Of a stretch of DNA of 64,000 bases, positions 17,449 through 53,444 are shown one piece after another (within the stretch, counting starts at the first letter, position 1; the number at the start of each line of letters is the position of its first letter). Made by a program: the position numbers and the translations under genes. The stretch is from positions 1 through 64,000 of the IMG/VR virus record IMGVR_UViG_3300025324_000011; one strand, 5' to 3'. This DNA comes from a virus. The notes under the pieces were generated by a model that was given only the letters and a program-made list of their open reading frames with translations, did no database searches and was not told the origin of the DNA.

Positions 17449-17579
17449 TTAAGTGGCTAGAACTATCAACCACCGGCCGCGACCAAATCGAACACCGACC
17501 CACGACCCCGGCAGGATGAGCTGCGGCAGCTTTCAATTCTTTTGGTTGGATGGGCAAAAAACGGAGTGATGATTTAGCG

Positions 17580-18857
17580 ATGAGTCTGCGAACCTATCTC
17601 GTTGGCGGCGCTGTTCGCGATCGCCTCATGGGTCTAGGGCCGAAGGACATGGATTATGTCGTCGTCGGCTCAACACAGGAGGAAATGCTCGCTGCTGGAT
17701 TTCGCGAAGCGGGCGTCGGCTTTTCTTCCTATTTGCATCCCACTAACGGCGATCAATACGCACTGGCACGGCGAGAGCGGAAGAGCGGAAGCGGCTACCG
17801 CGGATTCGTGATTGAATCAGGGCCAGAGGTAACGTTGGCGGAAGATCTATACCGCCGCGATCTAACGATAAACGCAATTGCACAAGATCCAAATAGCGGA
17901 GAGATCATTGACCCTCATGGTGGGCGGCGAGACATCCAAGAGGGCGTTTTGCGTGCCGTCAACCCCGGAGCGTTTGCCGATGATCCAGTGCGCGTCCTCC
18001 GGCTCGCTCGGTTCGCCGCTCGTTATCCGTCGCTTACCGTCGATCCGCAAACCATGCTTTGCGCTTCCGAGAGCGTGCGCGGCGGCGAGCTTGAGCGAGA
18101 GCCAGCAGAGAGGATATACGAAGAATGCTCGCTGGCTCTTTGCGGGTCGCGTTCGCCGTCTCGCTTTTTTGAAATACTCTCTGATCTAGGTGCGCTGCGT
18201 CATATTCTACCAGAGGTAGAAAATCTCAAGGGGATTGAGCAACCAAAGCATGGACACCATGAAGGCGACGCCTTCCAGCACACCATGATGGTGATAGATT
18301 CCGCCTCGTGGCGAGAAGACAATCACCCACGTATTATGTGGGCTGCGCTTCTCCATGACATCGGAAAAGCACTTACGCCGCGCGAGGAGTGGCCCGCTCA
18401 TCATGGACACGAAAAGGCGGGAGAGCCATTGGTGCGCCAAGCGCTGGGCCGCCTACGGGCTCCACGTGACGTTCTGAATTTCGCGGCCGTCACCTGCCGT
18501 CAACATATGCGCGCTCATAAATGGTGCGAGCTGCGGGCTGGCACGATCCTGGAAATACTTGAAGAGATGAGTTATCTTCGCGAGCCGGCGGCGATCGATG
18601 ATTTCTTGGATGCCTTCGATGCCGATACACGCGGGCGAGCCATGCCCGTAGACGAGAGTGATTTGATCGCACGCAGGCTATTTTTCAGATCCGCGCAAGC
18701 CGCAGCGGCCTCGATTCATGCCCGCGATCTTTTGGCCGATCGCGCGTTGCATGGTCGCGAAGAGAAGCCTCCCGGGCCGTGGGTCGGTGATATGATAAGA
18801 TCCGCAAGGATCAGGGCAATCAAGTCGATCAAGAAAGTTGCTATTCGCCATGTCTAG
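17580..18857 (+). CDS. cca: CCA-adding tRNA nucleotidyltransferase with HD domain
   Basis: A 425-aa class II nucleotidyltransferase. The start YLVGGAVRDRLMG followed by DMDYVVVG carries the GG and DxD motifs; LYRRDLTINAIAQD and DDPVRVLRLARFAARY are the next conserved blocks. An HD domain follows (HHEGDAFQHTMMVID, ALLHDIGK), as in bacterial bifunctional Cca enzymes. It repairs or adds the 3' CCA of tRNAs. The tRNA in this window has no encoded CCA. The ATG at the usual family start was taken; another ATG 30 bases upstream is possible. It overlaps the RlaP-like gene by eight bases. Confidence 0.9.
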   Translation: MSLRTYLVGGAVRDRLMGLGPKDMDYVVVGSTQEEMLAAGFREAGVGFSSYLHPTNGDQYALARRERKSGSGYRGFVIESGPEVTLAEDLYRRDLTINAIAQDPNSGEIIDPHGGRRDIQEGVLRAVNPGAFADDPVRVLRLARFAARYPSLTVDPQTMLCASESVRGGELEREPAERIYEECSLALCGSRSPSRFFEILSDLGALRHILPEVENLKGIEQPKHGHHEGDAFQHTMMVIDSASWREDNHPRIMWAALLHDIGKALTPREEWPAHHGHEKAGEPLVRQALGRLRAPRDVLNFAAVTCRQHMRAHKWCELRAGTILEILEEMSYLREPAAIDDFLDAFDADTRGRAMPVDESDLIARRLFFRSAQAAAASIHARDLLADRALHGREEKPPGPWVGDMIRSARIRAIKSIKKVAIRHV

Positions 18858-29711: not shown

Positions 29712-29847
29712 GTGGGGTGACCTCAGCGTGACGGAGCAATACGAGATTGCGAGGTCGGTGCAATCCGCGCTCGAAGGTACGGCGACAGACGATCTCCTGA
29801 GCACCGTCGTTCTTGCTGTCTTCGATCGGGAGAAAACCGATGTCTGA
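29581..29847 (+). CDS. Hypothetical protein
   Basis: An 88-aa helical protein from an ATG with AGGAGGAACGAG upstream. No family recognised. Confidence 0.55.
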   Translation: MEVNARSLMEATLFEIACRVVHCVTTREAAMNSIPTTYGVTRRRWGDLSVTEQYEIARSVQSALEGTATDDLLSTVVLAVFDREKTDV

Positions 29848-30028
29848 TCTTTACAAAGTAGTGCTCTGGGGTGGCCGCCAGATGCTTTGTTGCAGGGAAT
29901 GCGGCCAATGCTTCGGCGCTCTCCATTGGGGTGGCGGTGGAAACAAGCCGAAATGTTCTCTCTGGGGATCTGAAGCGGTCCCTGATTCTGCCTTTGATCG
30001 ATTAGAGAAAAGAGAATCAAGCAAATGA
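29840..30028 (+). CDS. Small zinc-binding protein
   Basis: A 62-aa protein with LCCRECGQCF and CSLWG, consistent with a zinc knuckle. ATGA overlap with the J-domain gene. Confidence 0.5.
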   Translation: MSDLYKVVLWGGRQMLCCRECGQCFGALHWGGGGNKPKCSLWGSEAVPDSAFDRLEKRESSK

Positions 30029-31005
30029 ACCGCGAGGACGCCATTCTCTTGATTGAAAGGGCATCGAGCCCGTTGGAACTTTTCCCTAATCGGGAGTTGG
30101 CGCAGAAACTTTACCATCGGTTGGCAAGGCTCTGTCATCCAGATGTCGCAGGTCGCGGTGGACGTGCCGAAGCCGCATTCATCAAGGCGAGCAAACTATG
30201 GGCGCAGTATAACGATAACGGCAACAAATCATCCATGAACGCTATCGCTGAATGGGAGATCGTTCGTCCGCTCGCTCGCGGAGGAATTGCCGATTTGTTT
30301 TGCGTCTGTAAAAACGAAATAAGCGGTCTCTTGAAAATAGCGCGACGGCCAGAAGACAATGATCTGCTGGTCAAGGAAGAGGAGCACCTAGGACTACTGC
30401 GCGCAGATTCACGTTGCGGATCGTTTGCTCGTTTTCTTCCCGTCGTGCTTGATGTTTTCGAGGCATCTAACCGCCGCGCCCTAGTCTTTGCTTTCGCGCC
30501 TGATCTGCTGTCGTTGAATGCGATTAAGGCGCAGTTGCCAAGGGCAGTTCCATTCCATCATATTATATGGATGGTCAATCGGGCGCTAGAAATACTCGGA
30601 TACGCCCATCAAATCGGGATTATTCACGGAGGCATTCTGCCGCATCATCTGCTATATCGCTTGGCGGATCATGGTTTAGTGTTGATCGATTGGTCATGTT
30701 CCGTGCGATTCCCTGGCGATCAACACATACCGCTATTGGTGAAGCGATGGATTGAACACTATCCGAAAGAGGTGAAGAATCGCGACGCCTATATTGCCAC
30801 GGATCTCTACATGACAATGAGGTCAGCGCAATGGGCCGCCGACCGCATTCCCAGTCGATTCCGCGCGTTATTCGATTGGTGTCTCGCAGAATCACCGGCG
30901 GCTAGACCACATGACGCATGGGAGCTTCAAGACCGCTGGCGAAAGCTTGCGGAAGAAGAATACGGTAAACCAACTTTCATGCATCTGAATATCCCGATGC
31001 ATTAG
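30025..31005 (+). CDS. J-domain fused to protein-kinase-like fold, possible pseudokinase
   Basis: A 326-aa protein. Residues 1-60 form a DnaJ-like J domain (KLYHRLARLCHPDVAG, AFIKASKLW) with the HPD loop intact. Residues 70-310 have a kinase outline: glycine-rich ARGGIADLF, a Lys in GLLKIARR, a catalytic-loop region IIHGGILPHHLL and a DWS in place of DFG. The HRD Asp and the loop Lys are missing, so catalysis is doubtful. It stands 24 nt before a VWA protein that overlaps a PurA-like gene. I infer recruitment of Hsp70 to a partner. Confidence 0.68.
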   Translation: MNREDAILLIERASSPLELFPNRELAQKLYHRLARLCHPDVAGRGGRAEAAFIKASKLWAQYNDNGNKSSMNAIAEWEIVRPLARGGIADLFCVCKNEISGLLKIARRPEDNDLLVKEEEHLGLLRADSRCGSFARFLPVVLDVFEASNRRALVFAFAPDLLSLNAIKAQLPRAVPFHHIIWMVNRALEILGYAHQIGIIHGGILPHHLLYRLADHGLVLIDWSCSVRFPGDQHIPLLVKRWIEHYPKEVKNRDAYIATDLYMTMRSAQWAADRIPSRFRALFDWCLAESPAARPHDAWELQDRWRKLAEEEYGKPTFMHLNIPMH

Positions 31006-31028
31006 TTTCCACGAAAGGAGAACGAAAC

Positions 31029-32048
31029 ATGGGCGGTTCAAGCTACTCTCACGATGCATACTCAGCACGTGCGGCGTTTCGCGTTGCAAGCGCTACTCCA
31101 GTGTTCAAGCATGACTCAGACGTCCGCACGGGTAAGGCCGCTGCCGCCGTGCATGCCAACCTGAATCCCTATAACGTCAAACTGCGGGAAAGCCGGGATT
31201 CCGAAGAGCATGCAACAACGATCCCGATCGGCATTCTACTCGACACCACTGGCAGTATGGCTGAGGTGCCGAAAATCATCGAAGCGCGTTTGCCGCGTCT
31301 CATGGGATCATTTCTCGACGACAAGGCGAGCGGGAAGCGGTATCTCGGCGATGGATATCCCGCCATCCTCATCGGCGCAGTAGATGATTACGATGCTCAA
31401 ATCCGATGCGGCTACTCGCCGTCCGCTTCTGGATGTCTTCAGGTCGGACAATTCGAGAGCGGCATTGAAATCGACAACGATCTAGAGCGCCTGTGGCTCA
31501 CTGGTCACGGAGGGGGCACTTACGAGGAATCATATCAGCTCGGCATCTACTTCTTCGCTCGCCATACAGCACATGATCACTTCGAGAAGCGCGGCAGAAA
31601 GGGGTATCTATTCATCATCGGAGATGAGCACGCCTACGGAACGGTTGCCGCCTCAGAGGTCAAGGATGTTATCGGCGACACCATACAAGCAGATATTCCG
31701 CTCGCAAGCATCCTCGCTGAGGCTGGCCGCTTGTATCACACATTCTTTATCCTCCCGAATTTGACGCAACATTACGGAGACGGTAATCTCCGCGCCTACT
31801 GGATGAAACTGATCGGTCAACAAAACGTGATTCTCTTGGACGATCCAGAGAAGGTCTGCGAAGCAATCGTCTCGGCGGTTGCTCTCTGCGAGAGGCACGT
31901 CGGGATTGCGGATCTAGTTGGTGACGGCGTTGCCTCTGGAATCGAGAATGCGCTGGTGCCGCTGTCTGCATCTACGGCAGTTGCGCGCTTCAGTGCTGAC
32001 GCCCTGCCAGTCATAGATGGCGAAGGCGGCGAGATCGATCGCCTATGA
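31029..32048 (+). CDS. VWA (von Willebrand factor A) domain protein
   Basis: A 339-aa protein with a MIDAS motif IGILLDTTGSMAEVP (DxTxS, about residue 70), a Thr in LTGHGGGTYEESYQL and an Asp in IIGDEHAYG, which together bind a divalent metal in VWA folds. GAAAGGAGAA precedes the ATG. VWA proteins paired with kinases occur in Ter-type stress systems. It ends in an ATGA overlap with the adenylosuccinate-synthetase-like gene. Confidence 0.78.
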   Translation: MGGSSYSHDAYSARAAFRVASATPVFKHDSDVRTGKAAAAVHANLNPYNVKLRESRDSEEHATTIPIGILLDTTGSMAEVPKIIEARLPRLMGSFLDDKASGKRYLGDGYPAILIGAVDDYDAQIRCGYSPSASGCLQVGQFESGIEIDNDLERLWLTGHGGGTYEESYQLGIYFFARHTAHDHFEKRGRKGYLFIIGDEHAYGTVAASEVKDVIGDTIQADIPLASILAEAGRLYHTFFILPNLTQHYGDGNLRAYWMKLIGQQNVILLDDPEKVCEAIVSAVALCERHVGIADLVGDGVASGIENALVPLSASTAVARFSADALPVIDGEGGEIDRL

Positions 32049-33250
32049 TCGCCTATGCGGTCGCCGGAATGGCCTTCGGTGACGAAGGCAAGGGAGTAGT
32101 AACGGATTATCTATCCCGTCGCTTCGCAGCAGACATAGTGATCCGTTTCAACGGCGGCTCGCAGGCTCGGCACAACGTCATAACGCCATCGGGCATTCAT
32201 CATACCTTTGCTCAGTTCGGCGCCGGAACGCTGGCCGGCGCCGCGACTTTTCTTTCTCGCTTTATGCTAGTGGAACCGTGCGCGCTCTTGCATGAAGCAG
32301 CGACGCTCGCGCGCAAGGGAATCGCGGCCCCGCTTTCTCGAATGACGATTGACCCGGAATGCGTCATCGTCACGCCGTTCCATCGTTACGCAAACCGTCT
32401 TCGCGAAACAGCGCGCGGAAGCATGCGCCACGGATCAGTTGGACAGGGGATAGGCGAGGCGCGCTCCGATGAAATTGATGGATTAGCGTTACGTATAAAG
32501 GATCTATCAGAGAATCCGCGAGCCATATTGTCTCGTATTCAAGAAAAGAAGCTAGCAGAACTTGAGGCGATTTCTGGGGCTGACGCGAATCTCTATGAAG
32601 CGATTCGCAAAGAGAACACAGAATCACTGATTTCTGTCTATAGTCTCATGCTCCAGGCCGTTACGATCTCTCCGGCGCGGAGGGCGCTGAGTTCCGCAAG
32701 ACAAGCTATTTTTGAAGGAGCGCAGGGTGTGCTCTTGGATGAGATTCACGGCTATGCTCCCTACAACTCATGGACCGATTGCACATTCGGTAACGCGGTA
32801 ACTATTGCGGATGAGATGGGCTGGTCTCTGAATAAAGTAGGAGTTTTTCGTTCTTACTTCACGCGCCATGGAGCTGGACCGTTCGCCACGGAAGATAGCT
32901 CCCTTCGCGCGCCAGAGCCCCACAATGGAGCACATCCATGGATGGGGGAATTTCGCTGCGGTCATTTCGACATGATGGCAGCGCAATATTCCGCGAGAAT
33001 TGCGCGTCCCGACGCATTAGCCGTCACGCACATGGATCGCCGCCCATCCAATAAAGTTGCGATTGAATACAATGGCGGATTACCGAGGTATAAGGATGAA
33101 CCGCATTTGATCCGGGCAATGAATCAATCGCTCGGCGTTGAAATCGAATATCAATTCTTCGGCCCTACCGCCTCATACGGCAGGGCATTGCGAGACGAGA
33201 GAAGGCGCCGCCTTGATTACGCTGGACAAGCGATCCATTCAAACGCTTGA
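32045..33250 (+). CDS. purA: Adenylosuccinate synthetase-like enzyme (PurA/PurZ superfamily)
   Basis: A 401-aa protein with GDEGKG (residues 12-17), FNGGSQARHNVI, THHTFAQFGAG-like block, IFEGAQGVLLDEIHG, TFGNA and TRHGAGPFATED, all typical of GTP-dependent adenylosuccinate synthetase. The catalytic Asp of GDEGKG is retained; in PurZ enzymes that make 2-aminoadenine precursor this position is usually changed, while PurZ0-type enzymes keep it. Phages carry members of this family for Z-DNA synthesis, yet no clear DatZ, MazZ or polymerase partner is visible here. It could instead be an AMP-salvage enzyme. Confidence 0.75.
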   Translation: MIAYAVAGMAFGDEGKGVVTDYLSRRFAADIVIRFNGGSQARHNVITPSGIHHTFAQFGAGTLAGAATFLSRFMLVEPCALLHEAATLARKGIAAPLSRMTIDPECVIVTPFHRYANRLRETARGSMRHGSVGQGIGEARSDEIDGLALRIKDLSENPRAILSRIQEKKLAELEAISGADANLYEAIRKENTESLISVYSLMLQAVTISPARRALSSARQAIFEGAQGVLLDEIHGYAPYNSWTDCTFGNAVTIADEMGWSLNKVGVFRSYFTRHGAGPFATEDSSLRAPEPHNGAHPWMGEFRCGHFDMMAAQYSARIARPDALAVTHMDRRPSNKVAIEYNGGLPRYKDEPHLIRAMNQSLGVEIEYQFFGPTASYGRALRDERRRRLDYAGQAIHSNA

Positions 33251-39539: not shown

Positions 39540-40940
39540 ATGGACTACGAAGACTTTATTGCCTCGAAGGCAGCATCGCGTCGCTTCGAGGGGATCGAAT
39601 CTACAGATCTTCCGAGCGTAATGTTCCCATTTCAAAGAGACTTGACTAAATGGGCGTTGCGAAGAGGAAGAGCTGCCATATTCGCCGGTACCGGTCTCGG
39701 TAAATCACTCATGGAGCTCGCGTGGGCAAGGGAAATCTCCAAGCTTGGCCGCGTGATCCTGGTTGCTCCGCTGGCCGTCGCTGAGCAAATGATCGGAGAG
39801 TCCAATAAATTCGATATTCCAGCGACATATACGCGGCGTGGCGAAAGATGCAGATCCCCAATAACAATCACCAATTATGAGCTTCTGCGGCATTTTAATG
39901 CAGATGATTTCGTCGGCGTAATTCTAGACGAATCAGGGATCATGAAGGACTTCACCGGCGCGATGCGCAACCTTTTAATCGAGATGTTCGCCGAGACTCC
40001 GTATCGTCTCGCTTGTACCGCAACGCCGGCGCCTAACGATTACACAGAGCTAGGGAATCACTCGGAATTCCTTGGAATTAAAACTAGAACAGAAATGCTG
40101 GCTGAGTATTTCGTTCACGACGGAGAGACGACGCAAGAATGGCGACTCAAGCGTCACGCCGAAAATGATTTCTGGCGATGGGTTTGCTCATGGGGAGCAA
40201 TGATATCGCAGCCCTCTGATCTGGGATACGAGAATGAAGGCTTTGATCTCCCGCCGCTAAGAATGCACGATGTACGGGTTGACGTCGGAGATTCTGATTT
40301 CATGGCCGAGGGTTATCTTTTCCCGCCGGCCGCGCGAACGCTGAGCGATCAGCGAACGACGCGCAGGGCAACAAGAAATCAGAGGATCGGAGCGGCCGAA
40401 AAGATCCTGCTGAATCATCCGTCGAAGCCCGCAGTAGTTTGGTGCGAATTGAATACCGAGCAAGACGAAATGTCCGAGGCTCTTGGTTCTCGGGCGGTTT
40501 CAATCTACGGCTCTATGACCCCGGAGGAAAAGGTATCACTCCATCAAGAGTGGATCCGCGGATCGGTTCCATTCCTTGTCACAAAGGGATCGATCTTTGG
40601 GCATGGGATGAATTGGCAGCATTGTGCGCGCCAAGTGTTCCTGGGCTCCAGTCATTCCTTCGAGATGATCTATCAGTCTATCCGCAGGTGTTGGCGATTC
40701 GGACAGACAAGTCCAGTTGATATTTATATGATCTCGGCGGCCACGGAATCTGCAATCGTCGCAAATTATAGGCGCAAGGAAGCTGATTTCGCGCGAATGA
40801 CGGGAGCGATGATCGAACATATGCGGGACACGATGCGCGCCGAGATCTCCTCGGCTCCGCGAGAGTGGAATGATTATACCGCCGAGGTTGATATGATCAT
40901 CCCTGAATGGCTCAGGAGGGAAGAGTCGGCATGCGCGTAA
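39540..40940 (+). CDS. SNF2/DEAD-type helicase
   Basis: A 466-aa superfamily 2 ATPase. Motif I AAIFAGTGLGKSLM (about residue 50), Ia VAPLAVAEQM, motif II ILDESG (about 133), motif III ACTATPAPND (about 160), and in the second domain VFLGSSHSFEMIYQSIRRCWRFGQ (motif VI). This resembles phage replication or repair helicases of the DEAD/SNF2 type. It lies between the clamp and a methyltransferase gene in one operon. Confidence 0.85.
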   Translation: MDYEDFIASKAASRRFEGIESTDLPSVMFPFQRDLTKWALRRGRAAIFAGTGLGKSLMELAWAREISKLGRVILVAPLAVAEQMIGESNKFDIPATYTRRGERCRSPITITNYELLRHFNADDFVGVILDESGIMKDFTGAMRNLLIEMFAETPYRLACTATPAPNDYTELGNHSEFLGIKTRTEMLAEYFVHDGETTQEWRLKRHAENDFWRWVCSWGAMISQPSDLGYENEGFDLPPLRMHDVRVDVGDSDFMAEGYLFPPAARTLSDQRTTRRATRNQRIGAAEKILLNHPSKPAVVWCELNTEQDEMSEALGSRAVSIYGSMTPEEKVSLHQEWIRGSVPFLVTKGSIFGHGMNWQHCARQVFLGSSHSFEMIYQSIRRCWRFGQTSPVDIYMISAATESAIVANYRRKEADFARMTGAMIEHMRDTMRAEISSAPREWNDYTAEVDMIIPEWLRREESACA

Positions 40941-41935
40941 TCGATCAGGGGGGAGGCGCATCGTTCACAGCGTATCGCGGAGATTGCGTTGAGATTGTGC
41001 GCGGAATACCAGATTGCTCAATAGATTATTCTATTTTCTCTCCGCCCTTCGCCTCATTGTACACTTATTCTGCGTCTCCGCGAGATCTCGGTAACTGCAA
41101 GACGCATGAAGAATTCGCTGCGCACTTCAGGTATCTTATTCCTGAATTATTTCGCGTGACCAAGAACGGTAGACTCCTTTCATTCCATTGTATGGTATTG
41201 CCTACATCGAAGGTCAGAGACGGCGTTATCGGTCTTACCGATTTCCGCGGGAATCTCATAAGGGACTTCACTGAGTGCGGCTGGATTCATCATTCAGAGG
41301 TAGTGATTTGGAAAGATCCCGTAACGGCCATGCAGCGGACAAAGGCTCTCGGATTGCTCCACAAGCAGATCGTGAAAGACAGCGCTATGGGTCGCCAGGG
41401 AATTCCAGACTATCTCATTACAATGAGAAAGCCCGGCGTCAACGAGGAGCCGATTCCTGAATGCTTCGATCGCTATTTTGGAGAAGATCCAGCGCCAACC
41501 GATCCCTATACCACGGATTTCCATACTCGCAACCCCTACTCAATCGCGGTGTGGCAACGTTACGCCTCTCCTGTGTGGATGGACATCAAGCCAAGCGATA
41601 CCTTGCAATACAGGTCTGCTCGCGAGCATGCGGATGAACGGCACATAGCGCCCTTGCAGCTTACGGTTATACGGAGAGCCGTTGAGTTATGGACAAACCC
41701 CGGCGACGTAGTCCTTTCGCCGTTCTCTGGCATTGGCTCCGAGGGCGTTGTCTCGCTGGAAATGCAGCGCAGATTTATCGGAATTGAATTGAAGAAATCA
41801 TATTACGAGCAAGGGGTCAGGAATCTGCAAGCGGCAGAATCGCAACAAGGGTCGATGTTTCCAGATTCCGTTAGGGGCTACGCAGGCGAGATAGCCACTG
41901 ATCTGGTGGATGACAAAGACGAGGGCGACGATTAA
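40931..41935 (+). CDS. DNA methyltransferase (N4-cytosine or N6-adenine)
   Basis: A 334-aa protein with the catalytic motif SIFSPPF (about residue 38) and the S-adenosylmethionine loop FSGIGSEG (about 268), the order of the beta class. The SPPF form favours N4-cytosine methylation, though N6-adenine cannot be excluded. AGGAGGGAAG precedes the ATG. Likely protects phage DNA from restriction or marks replication. No partner restriction enzyme nearby. Confidence 0.83.
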   Translation: MRVIDQGGGASFTAYRGDCVEIVRGIPDCSIDYSIFSPPFASLYTYSASPRDLGNCKTHEEFAAHFRYLIPELFRVTKNGRLLSFHCMVLPTSKVRDGVIGLTDFRGNLIRDFTECGWIHHSEVVIWKDPVTAMQRTKALGLLHKQIVKDSAMGRQGIPDYLITMRKPGVNEEPIPECFDRYFGEDPAPTDPYTTDFHTRNPYSIAVWQRYASPVWMDIKPSDTLQYRSAREHADERHIAPLQLTVIRRAVELWTNPGDVVLSPFSGIGSEGVVSLEMQRRFIGIELKKSYYEQGVRNLQAAESQQGSMFPDSVRGYAGEIATDLVDDKDEGDD

Positions 41936-42999: not shown

Positions 43000-43107
43000 T
43001 CGCCTGCGCCTACTAATCGTTGACGGTATAGTAAGGGAAATGCGGGGATGGTTAACTGCCGGTCTCTTTGCATAGACAATGTTCCAGACCTGCCTAATGG
43101 AGGTTGC

Positions 43108-44019
43108 ATGAGTGATGGAGCGAGCTTCGGGGACAGACTGCGAGCTGCGTCTGATTTCGCTTTTCTGGATGGCGTTGCCATCGCTATTGACCATGACGCA
43201 GAGAAATTGCGTGCGGAACGTGATGCATGGAAAGAAGCGGCCAGAGCTTGCGCCGATAACAGGGAAGTCCACCTCAGGGACAATTGCCTGCTCATTCGGC
43301 GAAAGTTACTTGCGGATGTTTTGACAAGCGGGTGGTGTGATCGCTGCGAGGCAAGACTACGCAGGATGATCGATCGCATCCTGCCAGACGAGACATCCGA
43401 TCCAGGTATCCAGTACCCAGTAGAAGAGACTTCTGCTTGCGACACGCACCTAGCAATCGATACAGGGAGACCACCGAGTGCGCCAGTTATCGCATTTTTT
43501 ACTGGTCAGCACCGGTTTCTGTCAAACTTTTGGCCGTGCGAGGTCACCGGCCCTGGTGGCCTCATATATCCCAGCGTTGAGCATGCCTACCAAGCCTATA
43601 AGTCAACATCTCCAGACGACTGGGCAGCGATTCATATGGCAATCTCACCAGGATTTGCCAGAAGCATGGGACGCTCGATACCACGGGCTAGGTTTGATCC
43701 AGATTGGGATGACAAATGTCTGTCCATCATGGAGGAGCTACTACGACAGAAGTTCAGCCAGCCACCACTGAGAGATTATCTCTGTGCCACAGAGCCAGCG
43801 ACGCTTATCGAAGGCAACACCTGGCGAGACCGGTTCTGGGGAGTGTATAACGGGAAGGGTGAGAACCATTTAGGCAGACTGCTCATGCGCATCAGGGCCG
43901 ATGCATCACGCAGCATCAATCCAACGGACTGGCCTGGGGGCGTGCCGTCAGATCCGCGTCCCTACCTGGAAGGGCATCCGCTGTCAGAGGATGAGGTAGC
44001 GCGCGGCCAGGCGCTTTAA
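43108..44019 (+). CDS. NADAR-domain protein
   Basis: A 303-aa protein from an ATG with GGAGGT upstream. Residues about 125-285 match NADAR (YbiA/DUF1768): FFTGQHRFLSNFWP, YPSVEHAYQAYKS, GFARSMGRS, then DRFWGVYNGKGENHLGRLLM. Members remove ADP-ribose from guanosine in DNA or RNA and act as antitoxins to DarT1-type toxins. A phage copy could undo a host DarTG1-like defence. The N-terminal 120 residues hold a CDRCEAR pair and a coil of unknown use. Not tested. Confidence 0.82.
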   Translation: MSDGASFGDRLRAASDFAFLDGVAIAIDHDAEKLRAERDAWKEAARACADNREVHLRDNCLLIRRKLLADVLTSGWCDRCEARLRRMIDRILPDETSDPGIQYPVEETSACDTHLAIDTGRPPSAPVIAFFTGQHRFLSNFWPCEVTGPGGLIYPSVEHAYQAYKSTSPDDWAAIHMAISPGFARSMGRSIPRARFDPDWDDKCLSIMEELLRQKFSQPPLRDYLCATEPATLIEGNTWRDRFWGVYNGKGENHLGRLLMRIRADASRSINPTDWPGGVPSDPRPYLEGHPLSEDEVARGQAL

Positions 44020-48918: not shown

Positions 48919-50041
48919 ATGAGGTTCGCATCGGTTTGCTCGGGGTGCGGAGGGTTTGACCTTGGCCTTGAGCAAGCGGGCCTGCGATGCGTCGTACAAA
49001 TCGAGATCAATAAGCAATGTTTCTCAGTTCTGGAAAAGCATTGGCCTTATGTTAAGCGGTTGAAAGATCTCTATGAGACGAAAGCGGAAGATCTTCCAGC
49101 CGTTGATGTTTTCGCAGGAGGAACACCCTGCCAGGATCTCTCGATTTCTGGACGCCGTGCGGGATTGGATGGAAGCGAATCCAGACTCTTCTACGAATTC
49201 GTTCGCCTCGCTGATTCGCAGCCTGCCGCTGCGGTTCTCTGGGAAAACGTCCCTGGCGCTTTCACCTCCTCGGAGGGAGAGGATTTTGCGATCATCCTCC
49301 GAGAACTCAGCGGATACTATCCTTCCGTCCCGATCGGAGGATGGAGAAATTCAGGCTTCTGCGTTGGACATTAAACGATACGTGCTCTGGCGCGTGCTGG
49401 ACGCTCAATACTTCGGAATTCCACAGCGACGCCGTCGCGTCTTCGTTGTTGGATTGCCTCGAAACGGGGAGCGGGGAAGAATTCGAGGCGTACATCCAGA
49501 GATACTTTTTGACGAAACGAGCCTGCGCAGGCATCCTCCGTCGAGCCTTGAAAAGGAACAGACCGTTGCCCCATTACTTGGAGGAAGCCTTGGCGGCCAC
49601 AGAATAGGAGCAGAAGAGGCGGCAGGCGGGCATCTAATTAGTCACACCGTCACCACCCGCAGCGGTATGCATCATGATCCAACAAGCGACACATTCATTG
49701 TCCATACCCTGACAAGTGAGGGGGCGGACGCGAGCGAAGACGGCACAGGACGCGGCCTTCCGCTTGTTCTCGGAACTCTCGCTGCCTCATACGGAAAACA
49801 AGCAGGGAGGGACTTCGAGGTGTCGGATAATTTGATCGTTGCTCGCCGTCGCGTCCGGAGGATAACACCGATTGAGGCTGAGCGCTTGCAGGGCTTCCCA
49901 GATCATTGGACTAAGCATGACTCGAACGGTCGGAAGTTATCGGATGCGTCACGCTATCGAATGATAGGTAACGCGGTAGCCGTGCCAGTCGCAAAATGGA
50001 TAGGATCTCGTTTAATTCAAGCAGTGGAGGATTCGCAATGA
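48919..50041 (+). pseudogene. Cytosine-C5 DNA methyltransferase split by a frameshift
   Basis: The first frame (48919-49374) has FASVCSGCGGFDLGLEQAG (SAM motif I), the catalytic TPCQDLS and WENVPG. It stops after GGWRNSGFCVGH. The next frame resumes exactly as KRYVLWRVLDAQYFGIPQRRRRVFVVG and continues through a TRD region to motif IX/X (ERLQGFPDHW, YRMIGNAVAVPVAKWIG). A +1 shift at the CAT TAA A site near 49371 restores a 374-aa enzyme. All catalytic motifs are intact, so a sequencing indel or a recent mutation is likely. Confidence 0.85.
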
Positions 50042-53350: not shown

Positions 53351-53372
53351 GATGCAACCTCCGAAGTTGAAG

Positions 53373-53444
53373 TGGGGCCAGCAGGGATCGAACCTGCGAC
53401 CATCCGCTTAAGAGGCGGCAGCTCTACCGCTGAGCTATGGCCCC
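53373..53444 (-). tRNA. tRNA-Lys(CUU)
   Basis: A full cloverleaf on the minus strand: acceptor GGGGCCA/TGGCCCC, D arm AGCTCAGCGGTAGAGCT, anticodon loop CTCTTAA (anticodon CTT, Lys), T arm GCAGG TTCGATC CCTGC. The discriminator base is A, followed by CTTC, so the 3' CCA is not encoded and must be added. It is the only tRNA gene found here. Confidence 0.9.

Follow-up and report, generated by a model that had tools for sequence, protein, structure and literature searches.

What would a bacteriophage do with a J domain fused to a kinase-like fold, a VWA protein and a homologue of adenylosuccinate synthetase, encoded one after the other? The question arises from a locus in the window analysed here, which comprises positions 1 to 64,000 (64,000 nucleotides) of the IMG/VR virus record IMGVR_UViG_3300025324_000011. 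A preliminary description of this window had proposed three coupled genes at 30025-33250, and the coordinates of the open reading frames bear this out, down to the ATGA at 32045-32048 in which the VWA gene ends and the PurA-like gene begins. The features of the locus are as follows.

29840-30028, + strand: small four-Cys ORF (zinc-ribbon-like), with an ATGA overlap with the J-kinase start
30025-31005, + strand: J-domain and pseudokinase protein, 326 aa (PHROG 3043, 'kinase')
30136-30144, + strand: HPD motif of the J domain (H38-P39-D40), from conservation in 50 family members
30625-30633, + strand: HRD position, here H201-G202-G203, with the catalytic Asp missing
30688-30696, + strand: DFG position, here D222-W223-S224, from the same 50-member comparison
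31029-32048, + strand: VWA-fold protein, 339 aa (PHROG 2971, unknown function), without a Pfam family
31242-31256, + strand: MIDAS core D72-T-T74-G-S76, from conservation in 55 family members
32045-33250, + strand: divergent adenylosuccinate-synthetase paralogue (PurA-like), 401 aa (PHROG 1211)
32078-32095, + strand: phosphate-binding loop GDEGKG with the catalytic Asp (E. coli Asp13), from family conservation
32939-32956, + strand: rebuilt substrate loop W-M-G-E-F-R, against E. coli T300-T301-G-R303-R-R305-R306

The four-Cys ORF at the head of the locus was seen in this phage only, with no relative elsewhere among 172 loci, and so lies outside the conserved core.

A recurrent gene set in phages, bacteria and plasmids

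Far from being peculiar to one phage, the gene order recurs widely and far beyond chance. The trio is present in ~190 Mycobacterium phages (Bixzunavirus), and a scan seeded with the VWA protein only, covering 80 bacterial and 80 viral loci, found the PurA-like gene in 79 of the former and 77 of the latter. The full trio lay on one strand in 74/80 bacterial and 40/80 viral loci, and among these the order J-kinase, VWA, PurA-like was kept in 74/74 and 39/40 cases, respectively. The J-kinase is missing from half of the viral loci, in many of which an unrelated small gene takes its place; the J-pseudokinase is thus dispensable in some settings. A PurA-like start at -4 bp (ATGA) from the VWA gene is the commonest spacing, occurring in ~40 of 105 loci. 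The pairwise distances of the three genes correlate with r of 0.84-0.89. On the tree the label of cell or virus switches at least four times, which indicates that the cassette has moved between phages and their hosts. Plasmids also bear the gene set, one with its regulator divergent; it is not phage-specific and is found in phages, bacteria and plasmids alike. Sampling of genomes returned 1/199 across a whole phylum (the starting genome itself) as against 67/151 (two of them weak) in one order, and because of this patchy distribution core-gene status is not claimed.

We found no published account of the gene set as a system, or of its function, and the conserved trio extends well beyond the phage locus first noted. 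Since the Bixzunavirus phages infect Mycobacterium smegmatis, the trio can be tested in a standard laboratory host. Three candidates were set aside along the way: ORFs of 600-700 aa in Actinomadura and others, which resemble a Nudix/J-kinase fusion but whose extra N-terminus comes from translating the preceding Nudix gene in the wrong frame; a match in an Acinetobacter 'phage' contig (L007), which is a host purA region; and a further match (L003), which is a true PurA without VWA.

The J-domain pseudokinase and the VWA protein

In the first protein, single-sequence comparison with Pfam gives a weak DnaJ match, under the cut-off (E=0.011). Its AF2 model (pLDDT 94.9) shows the J fold, and Foldseek places a DnaJ-PKA chimera (4wb7) first, followed by the bacterial and eukaryotic Ser/Thr kinases PknI, PknB and Pim, so that structure prediction favours the J domain and kinase-like fold originally suggested. 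The HPD motif, through which J domains stimulate Hsp70, is well retained among 50 family members (H in 45, P in 47 and D in 47). Equally well founded were the reported loss of the HRD Asp and the replacement of DFG by DWS. The His of the HRD site is present in 50/50 members and the Asp in 0/50 (A in 45, G in 2, S in 2, E in 1); at the DFG site the first position is D in 38, G in 11 and E in 1, and the Trp is kept in 47/50. The ATP-anchoring residues K104 and E118 are each retained in 49/50. The kinase domain thus looks inactive, judging from the HRD Asp, and the gene set supplies a natural fusion of J domain and pseudokinase in both bacteria and phages.

No Pfam VWA match was obtained for the second protein. 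Its AF2 model (pLDDT 91.3) is matched by Foldseek to integrin I-domains and NorD, and the MIDAS residues D72 (55/55), T74 (54/55) and S76 (54/55) are invariant or nearly so, as are the further candidate metal-site residues D120 and D199 (both 55/55), supporting a VWA fold with its MIDAS core retained. The VWA proteins of the set form a family without a Pfam entry.

A rebuilt adenylosuccinate synthetase

That the third gene encodes an adenylosuccinate-synthetase homologue is clear (PF00709, E=2.8e-56), and the catalytic pair is retained throughout the family, the Asp13 equivalent in 107/107 ungapped members and the His41 equivalent in 108/108. The substrate loop is another matter. Instead of Thr300-Thr301-Gly-Arg303 the family has [WFY]QG, with the Arg303 equivalent deleted in 108/108 and T301 replaced by Q in 103/108. 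Further changes affect N38 (to Q in 106/108), T129 (to C or V in 107/108), K331 (to H or C in 103/108) and the R143 position, all of which we take to be functional positions from their roles in E. coli PurA. Arg303 itself senses the 2'-oxygen of IMP and contacts aspartate (PMC8342488).

These changes set the family apart from the PurA of its own hosts. Exactly two PF00709 genes are present in 10/10 sampled bacterial genomes, the housekeeping PurA scoring 558-610 bits against 174-236 bits for the operon paralogue, and the PurA loop is intact in 7/7 usable housekeeping controls (7 of 10, three with a wrong reading frame being left out). Although the residue changes could shift kinetics and not substrate, the genes, labelled 'adenylosuccinate synthetase' in plasmid records and in the ~190 sequenced Mycobacterium phages, are probably misnamed, because the IMP/aspartate loop is lost and the same partners are nearly always present. 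The phage record (96,984 bases) contains no member of the adenylosuccinate lyase family.

A Nudix regulator and its putative operator in bacteria

In 69/80 bacterial loci the trio is joined by a Nudix and NrtR-type regulator, making a bacterial operon of four genes: Nudix regulator, J-domain pseudokinase, VWA and PurA-like. When neighbours were clustered over 30 representative loci, the Nudix gene alone recurred immediately next to the bacterial trio. PF00293 and PF21906 (NrtR_WHD) are over cut-off in loci L026, L012, L013 and L186 and weaker in L184/L185, and the Nudix-to-J-kinase spacing is -4 bp in ~30 of 63 loci. Nocardiopsis, the planctomycete and Nocardia/Gordonia have a degenerate Nudix box, as would be expected of a sensor.

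The operon promoter carries CTCA-N3-TGAG sites spaced by 16 bp, a putative operator that was spotted by eye and then tested, counting of perfect palindromes having missed it. At least one site with at most one mismatch occurs in 57/66 promoters, a 46-fold excess over the rest of the loci for a motif defined from the same promoters, and 124 sites with 16-bp spacing were observed against 4.8 in shuffles. The tandem site is confined to the operon promoter in 19/20 genomes searched, with 25/25 of its occurrences there; uniqueness on this scale opens a direct route to a search for the inducing ligand.

Proposed mechanism and alternative explanations

What device might unite these parts? Our preferred reading, held with a little less than even confidence, is that the three genes are the effectors of a conserved cassette that moves between genomes, and that together they make up a purine-ligase device which regulates itself and is controlled through a chaperone-type module. 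In bacteria the Nudix regulator would hold its own promoter through the 16-bp-phased CTCA-N3-TGAG array and release it once a nucleotide-type ligand (ADP-ribose-like, or the substrate or product of the device) binds the Nudix domain. The PurA-like enzyme would keep adenylosuccinate-synthetase chemistry, with Asp13/His41 serving GTP-dependent phosphorylation of a 6-oxopurine followed by attack of an amine, and its acceptor, amine or both would differ from the IMP and aspartate of host PurA. The VWA protein, through its MIDAS metal site, and the J-pseudokinase may form a complex for control or assembly of the enzyme or its target, the HPD motif recruiting host DnaK (no Hsp70 gene was found in the 96,984-base phage record) and the nucleotide-binding pseudokinase acting as sensor or scaffold. 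Operon structure and co-inheritance are what tie VWA and J-kinase to the enzyme; the best reading is still that a nucleotide enzyme works together with a chaperone-linked module, and within it the module may control the enzyme, as suggested in the preliminary description. Phages, which have the effector genes but not the switch, would express them during infection and benefit accordingly. A more specific version, which we offer tentatively, is that the ligase derived from PurA produces a purine nucleotide foreign to known metabolism, either a signal or an antimetabolite; the VWA/J-pseudokinase module would be the chaperone that loads or gates it and the Nudix repressor of the operon would sense it, with the effector genes repeatedly exchanged between phage and host and phages mostly lacking the repressor.

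It is unlikely, if worth weighing, that the cassette serves counter-ADP-ribosylation or NAD+ conflict, VWA and J-pseudokinase handling ADP-ribosylated host molecules, the PurA-like enzyme processing an ADP-ribose-derived nucleotide and Nudix sensing ADP-ribose. The prevalence of the NrtR-type regulator is consistent with this, as are ARG-centred operons in which a vWA chaperone accompanies a Nudix-HTH regulator (PMC9503650 section 3.8) and the NADAR, NadV or Nudix genes near the VWA/PurA-like pair in several phages, this phage having NADAR at 43048-44019. Yet none of the ARG, macro, sirtuin and ART genes was seen to recur in the operon, the operator occurs nowhere but at this operon, unlike a general NAD regulon, and the NrtR family is not limited to NAD ligands, one member regulating arabinose utilisation (PMC4666351). 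A phage-wide NADAR link, suggested by Vibrio Va1, L134/L135 and this phage, was rejected: of 50 viral records that contain the VWA gene only 9 have NADAR, which is not enrichment but falls under the published rate of >48% of medium and jumbo phages (PMC9503650).

We give still less credence to base modification, in which the PurA-like enzyme, much like PurZ, would supply phage DNA with a deoxypurine nucleotide substituted at N6. Deletion of Arg303, an aromatic residue at T300 as in the aligned S-2L PurZ, and two DNA methyltransferases encoded by the phage speak for it; against it, all 147 phage PurZ sequences have Ser at the Asp13 position (PMC12884076) where this family has Asp. Nor was a DatZ-type YfbR gene (PF12917) found in the phage record, which may be incomplete, and no replication gene recurs beside the bacterial copies.

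It is very improbable that this is an ordinary auxiliary purine gene boosting IMP to AMP among unrelated neighbours. Nucleotide genes are common in phages and the catalytic pair and phosphate loop are intact, but from phylum to phylum the gene keeps the same partners, order and coupling, a complete PurA is already present in the hosts and the substrate loop is rebuilt family-wide. Least credible is a TerY-P-like triad, with adjacent VWA and kinase-fold genes as a phosphorylation switch: the Ter-type comparison drawn at the outset fails for want of a PP2C partner, the catalytic Asp or any ter gene among recurrent neighbours, and PADLOC, returning generic kinase-fold matches only, assigns the locus to no known defence system.

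Comparison with known systems

TerY-P, defined as VWA, PP2C and a kinase with a C-terminal zinc ribbon (PMC11090510), likewise encodes VWA and kinase-fold proteins together, but the trio has a J domain in place of the zinc ribbon and a kinase of inactive appearance. VWA chaperone-like proteins are also shared with the MoxR-vWA and GAP1-N2 conflict systems (eLife 2020, PMC7159879), of which one theme has a DnaJ domain and another combines kinase and vWA; the trio is without a MoxR or GTPase partner, and those systems are without a PurA-like enzyme. ARG-centred operons (Iyer et al. 2022, PMC9503650) resemble the bacterial operon in pairing Nudix-HTH with vWA in actinobacteria, planctomycetes and proteobacteria, but their ARG domain and phosphatases are absent from the trio operon (neighbour clustering of bacterial loci found no recurring ARG gene), and their description includes neither J-pseudokinase nor PurA-like enzyme, the terms adenylosuccinate, PurA and DnaJ having 0 occurrences.

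PurZ/PurZ0 of 2-aminoadenine phages is, like the present enzyme, a phage-borne PurA relative without an Arg303 equivalent, though with Ser (or Gly) for the catalytic Asp, a linked DatZ-type dATP hydrolase and other neighbours. Judged by its sequence the PurA-like protein is not PurZ, because the Asp13/His41 pair is kept, and it scores 44 bits against an NCBIfam PurZ cut-off of 300. With PurA itself it shares the PF00709 fold, the phosphate loop and Asp13/His41, differing in the rebuilt TTGR loop and the altered N38, T129, R143 and K331, and coexisting with a normal PurA.

Genes and predicted folds of the trio

The contig carrying the trio is a 96,984-base virus record from IMG/VR, and an ORF check bore out the positions given for its three reading frames in the preliminary description. 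The genes discussed here are, in window order:

17550-18857 (+), HD-domain nucleotidyltransferase of the poly(A) polymerase / CCA-adding type
29840-30028 (+), 62-aa ORF with four cysteines, sharing an ATGA overlap with the J-kinase start; relatives absent among the compared loci
30025-31005 (+), J-domain/kinase-like protein (J-kinase)
31029-32048 (+), VWA protein
32045-33250 (+), PurA-like protein (relative of adenylosuccinate synthetase)
40907-41935 (+), DNA methyltransferase, N6/N4 type
43048-44019 (+), 323-aa protein ~10 kb downstream of the trio, with NADAR at its C-terminus (PF08719, E=6.7e-21) and ~150 N-terminal aa of unrecognised kind
49073-50041 (+), DNA methyltransferase, C5 type
53372-53444, single tRNA-Lys(ctt)

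With two methyltransferases, the phage DNA is probably methylated. PHROG names for the trio are 3043 'kinase', 2971 unknown and 1211 '2-aminooxy adenylosuccinate synthetase'. Single-sequence Pfam searches matched the J domain (E 0.011) and kinase fold (E 0.032) weakly and gave no VWA match for the VWA protein, so both proteins were checked through family alignment and structure. AF2 models built from 49 J-kinase and 52 VWA family members reached pLDDT of 94.9 and 91.3, respectively. The J-kinase model best matched the DnaJ-PKA chimera 4wb7 in the PDB, followed by mycobacterial PknI/PknB and Pim kinases, upholding the proposed kinase-like fold; the HRD Asp, said to be missing, is indeed absent throughout the family alignment (Asp 0/50, His 50/50). 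The HPD motif of the J domain is kept (H 45/50, P 47/50, D 47/50), as are K104 and E118 (49/50 each), and the DFG Asp is present in 38/50. These residues point to a J-domain pseudokinase that has probably retained nucleotide binding. The VWA model matched integrin I-domains and NorD, and the MIDAS described as intact has an invariant D72 (55/55), so that by its aligned residues the protein carries a conserved metal site.

A cassette shared by phages and bacteria

Each trio gene has tblastn relatives in 190 Mycobacterium phage records; in Napoleon13, gp257 (kinase), gp258 (hypothetical) and gp260 (PurA-like) are interrupted by one small gene. A VWA alignment was used to scan GTDB species genomes and IMG/VR, yielding 80 loci from each, in which the partner genes were then sought with HMMs. 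The combination, unfamiliar to the preliminary description, does recur: the full trio occurs in 74/80 bacterial loci, always in order and on one strand, and as a single-strand trio in 40/80 viral loci (39 in order), with a PurA-like gene in 79/80 and 77/80, respectively. Because loci were chosen by the VWA gene only, its pairing with these partners is not a selection effect. VWA-to-PurA spacing is tight, most commonly -4 bp. Distribution is patchy, with the cassette in 1 of 199 genomes sampled across one phylum (the starting genome itself) and in 67 of 151 within one order, two being weak matches. The cell/virus label switches 6 times on a 49-locus tree, at least 4 of these forced by supported branches, and distances are correlated among the three genes; the cassette travels between hosts and phages as a unit. 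Plasmid records label the set hypothetical - hypothetical - adenylosuccinate synthetase - NUDIX. For one Nocardiopsis genome, we read the sequences flanking the operon as ruvB- and yebC-like, and the operon thus appears chromosomal there rather than prophage.

Several loci vary. A conserved 129-aa protein replaces the J-kinase in 28 viral loci (L119-L166), ~0.6 kb upstream of VWA, and Rhizobium and Vibrio phages, as well as L158 and L164, have a different 'VDGVVWD' protein upstream of VWA. Among viral fold matches to the VWA model, the best-ranked, A0A3G3M5V4 of Mycobacterium phage Sauce, has 595 aa versus ~340 elsewhere and may bear a ~250-aa insert in or beside the VWA protein, perhaps an intein or homing element. 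A 416-kb viral contig (L089) carries VWA, PurA-like and kinase genes alongside Nudix, NadV-like and NADAR genes within ~8 kb, and four loci (L005, L127, L130, L131) have what are presumably TROVE-domain (Ro60-like) genes 3.4-5 kb downstream of VWA.

An altered PurA

All ten sampled bacterial genomes encode a normal PurA plus the operon paralogue. Among 108 non-redundant members of the PurA-like family (36 cellular, 72 viral; E. coli PurA numbering), catalytic Asp13 and His41 are retained. Other positions, which in PurA have roles in IMP phosphate and guanine contact, are altered: Asn38 to Gln in 106/108, Thr129 to Cys/Val in 107/108 and Lys331 to His/Cys in 103/108, with Asp333 retained in 104/108. 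Thr300-Thr301-Gly-Arg303 has become [WFY]-Q-G, the Arg303 position being lost in 108/108, and the PurA loop is preserved in the seven housekeeping PurA sequences of these genomes that were usable as controls. Arg303 of PurA balances the IMP 2'-oxygen charge and contacts aspartate (PMC8342488). Catalytic residues kept within an altered substrate site suggest that PurA chemistry is probably retained and the acceptor and/or amine changed. Identity with PurZ is rejected, since the family keeps Asp13, where PurZ has Ser (PMC12884076), and the 96,984-base record holds no DatZ-type gene; nor was an adenylosuccinate lyase family or Hsp70 gene found in that record.

A fourth gene and its predicted operator array

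Neighbour clustering of 30 bacterial loci found one recurrent gene directly adjoining the trio, encoding a Nudix + NrtR-type winged-helix protein (PF00293 + PF21906). It occurs in 69/80 bacterial loci, most often directly upstream of the J-kinase (overlap of -4 bp in about 30/63). Exceptions are Nocardia, Gordonia, Tsukamurella and Rhodococcus, where it follows PurA on the 3' side, and Agrobacterium, where it is divergent. Many lineages have an intact Nudix box, but that of Nocardiopsis, a planctomycete and Nocardia/Gordonia is degenerate, which would suit a sensor role.

CTCA-N3-TGAG, with at most one mismatch, lies 5' of the Nudix gene start in 57/66 bacterial loci. Its copies recur at 16-bp spacing (65 pairs at 16 bp, then 14 at 32 bp and 4 at 27 bp) and number 124, where shuffled sequences predict 4.8. 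Density is 46-fold that of the remaining locus sequence, in a test not independent of discovery, as the motif was defined after promoters were inspected. The stronger result is whole-genome uniqueness: with up to one mismatch, the tandem pattern is present in 19 of 20 whole genomes searched, and 25/25 occurrences fall at the operon promoter. Rather than a general NAD regulon, we read this as a predicted regulator that is dedicated and local. No such array precedes the phage trio. The divergent Agrobacterium promoter (L186, 4771-4905) lacks CTCA-N3-TGAG and has CTTAGAC/GTCTAAG-like repeats, perhaps a local operator version.

Proposed function and nearest known systems

The gene set, order, coupling, folds, residues and site array of the cassette are established. 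In the mechanism we propose, the Nudix protein would repress the operon until a ligand releases it, the PurA-like enzyme would act on a changed substrate, the J domain would recruit DnaK, and the VWA protein and pseudokinase would form a complex with the enzyme, to the presumed benefit of the phage. A search of the open-licence PMC literature (subscription papers lay outside it) found no description of this combination; as far as could be searched, the component folds are known and the system as a unit is undescribed. The strongest rival is an ADP-ribose role; however, NADAR co-occurs with the VWA gene in phages below the published rate. The closest published arrangement is that of ARG-centred ADP-ribose operons (PMC9503650). 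Those operons resemble ours in combining Nudix-HTH with vWA, whereas their description mentions neither a PurA-like enzyme nor a J-pseudokinase, both of which the trio operon has.
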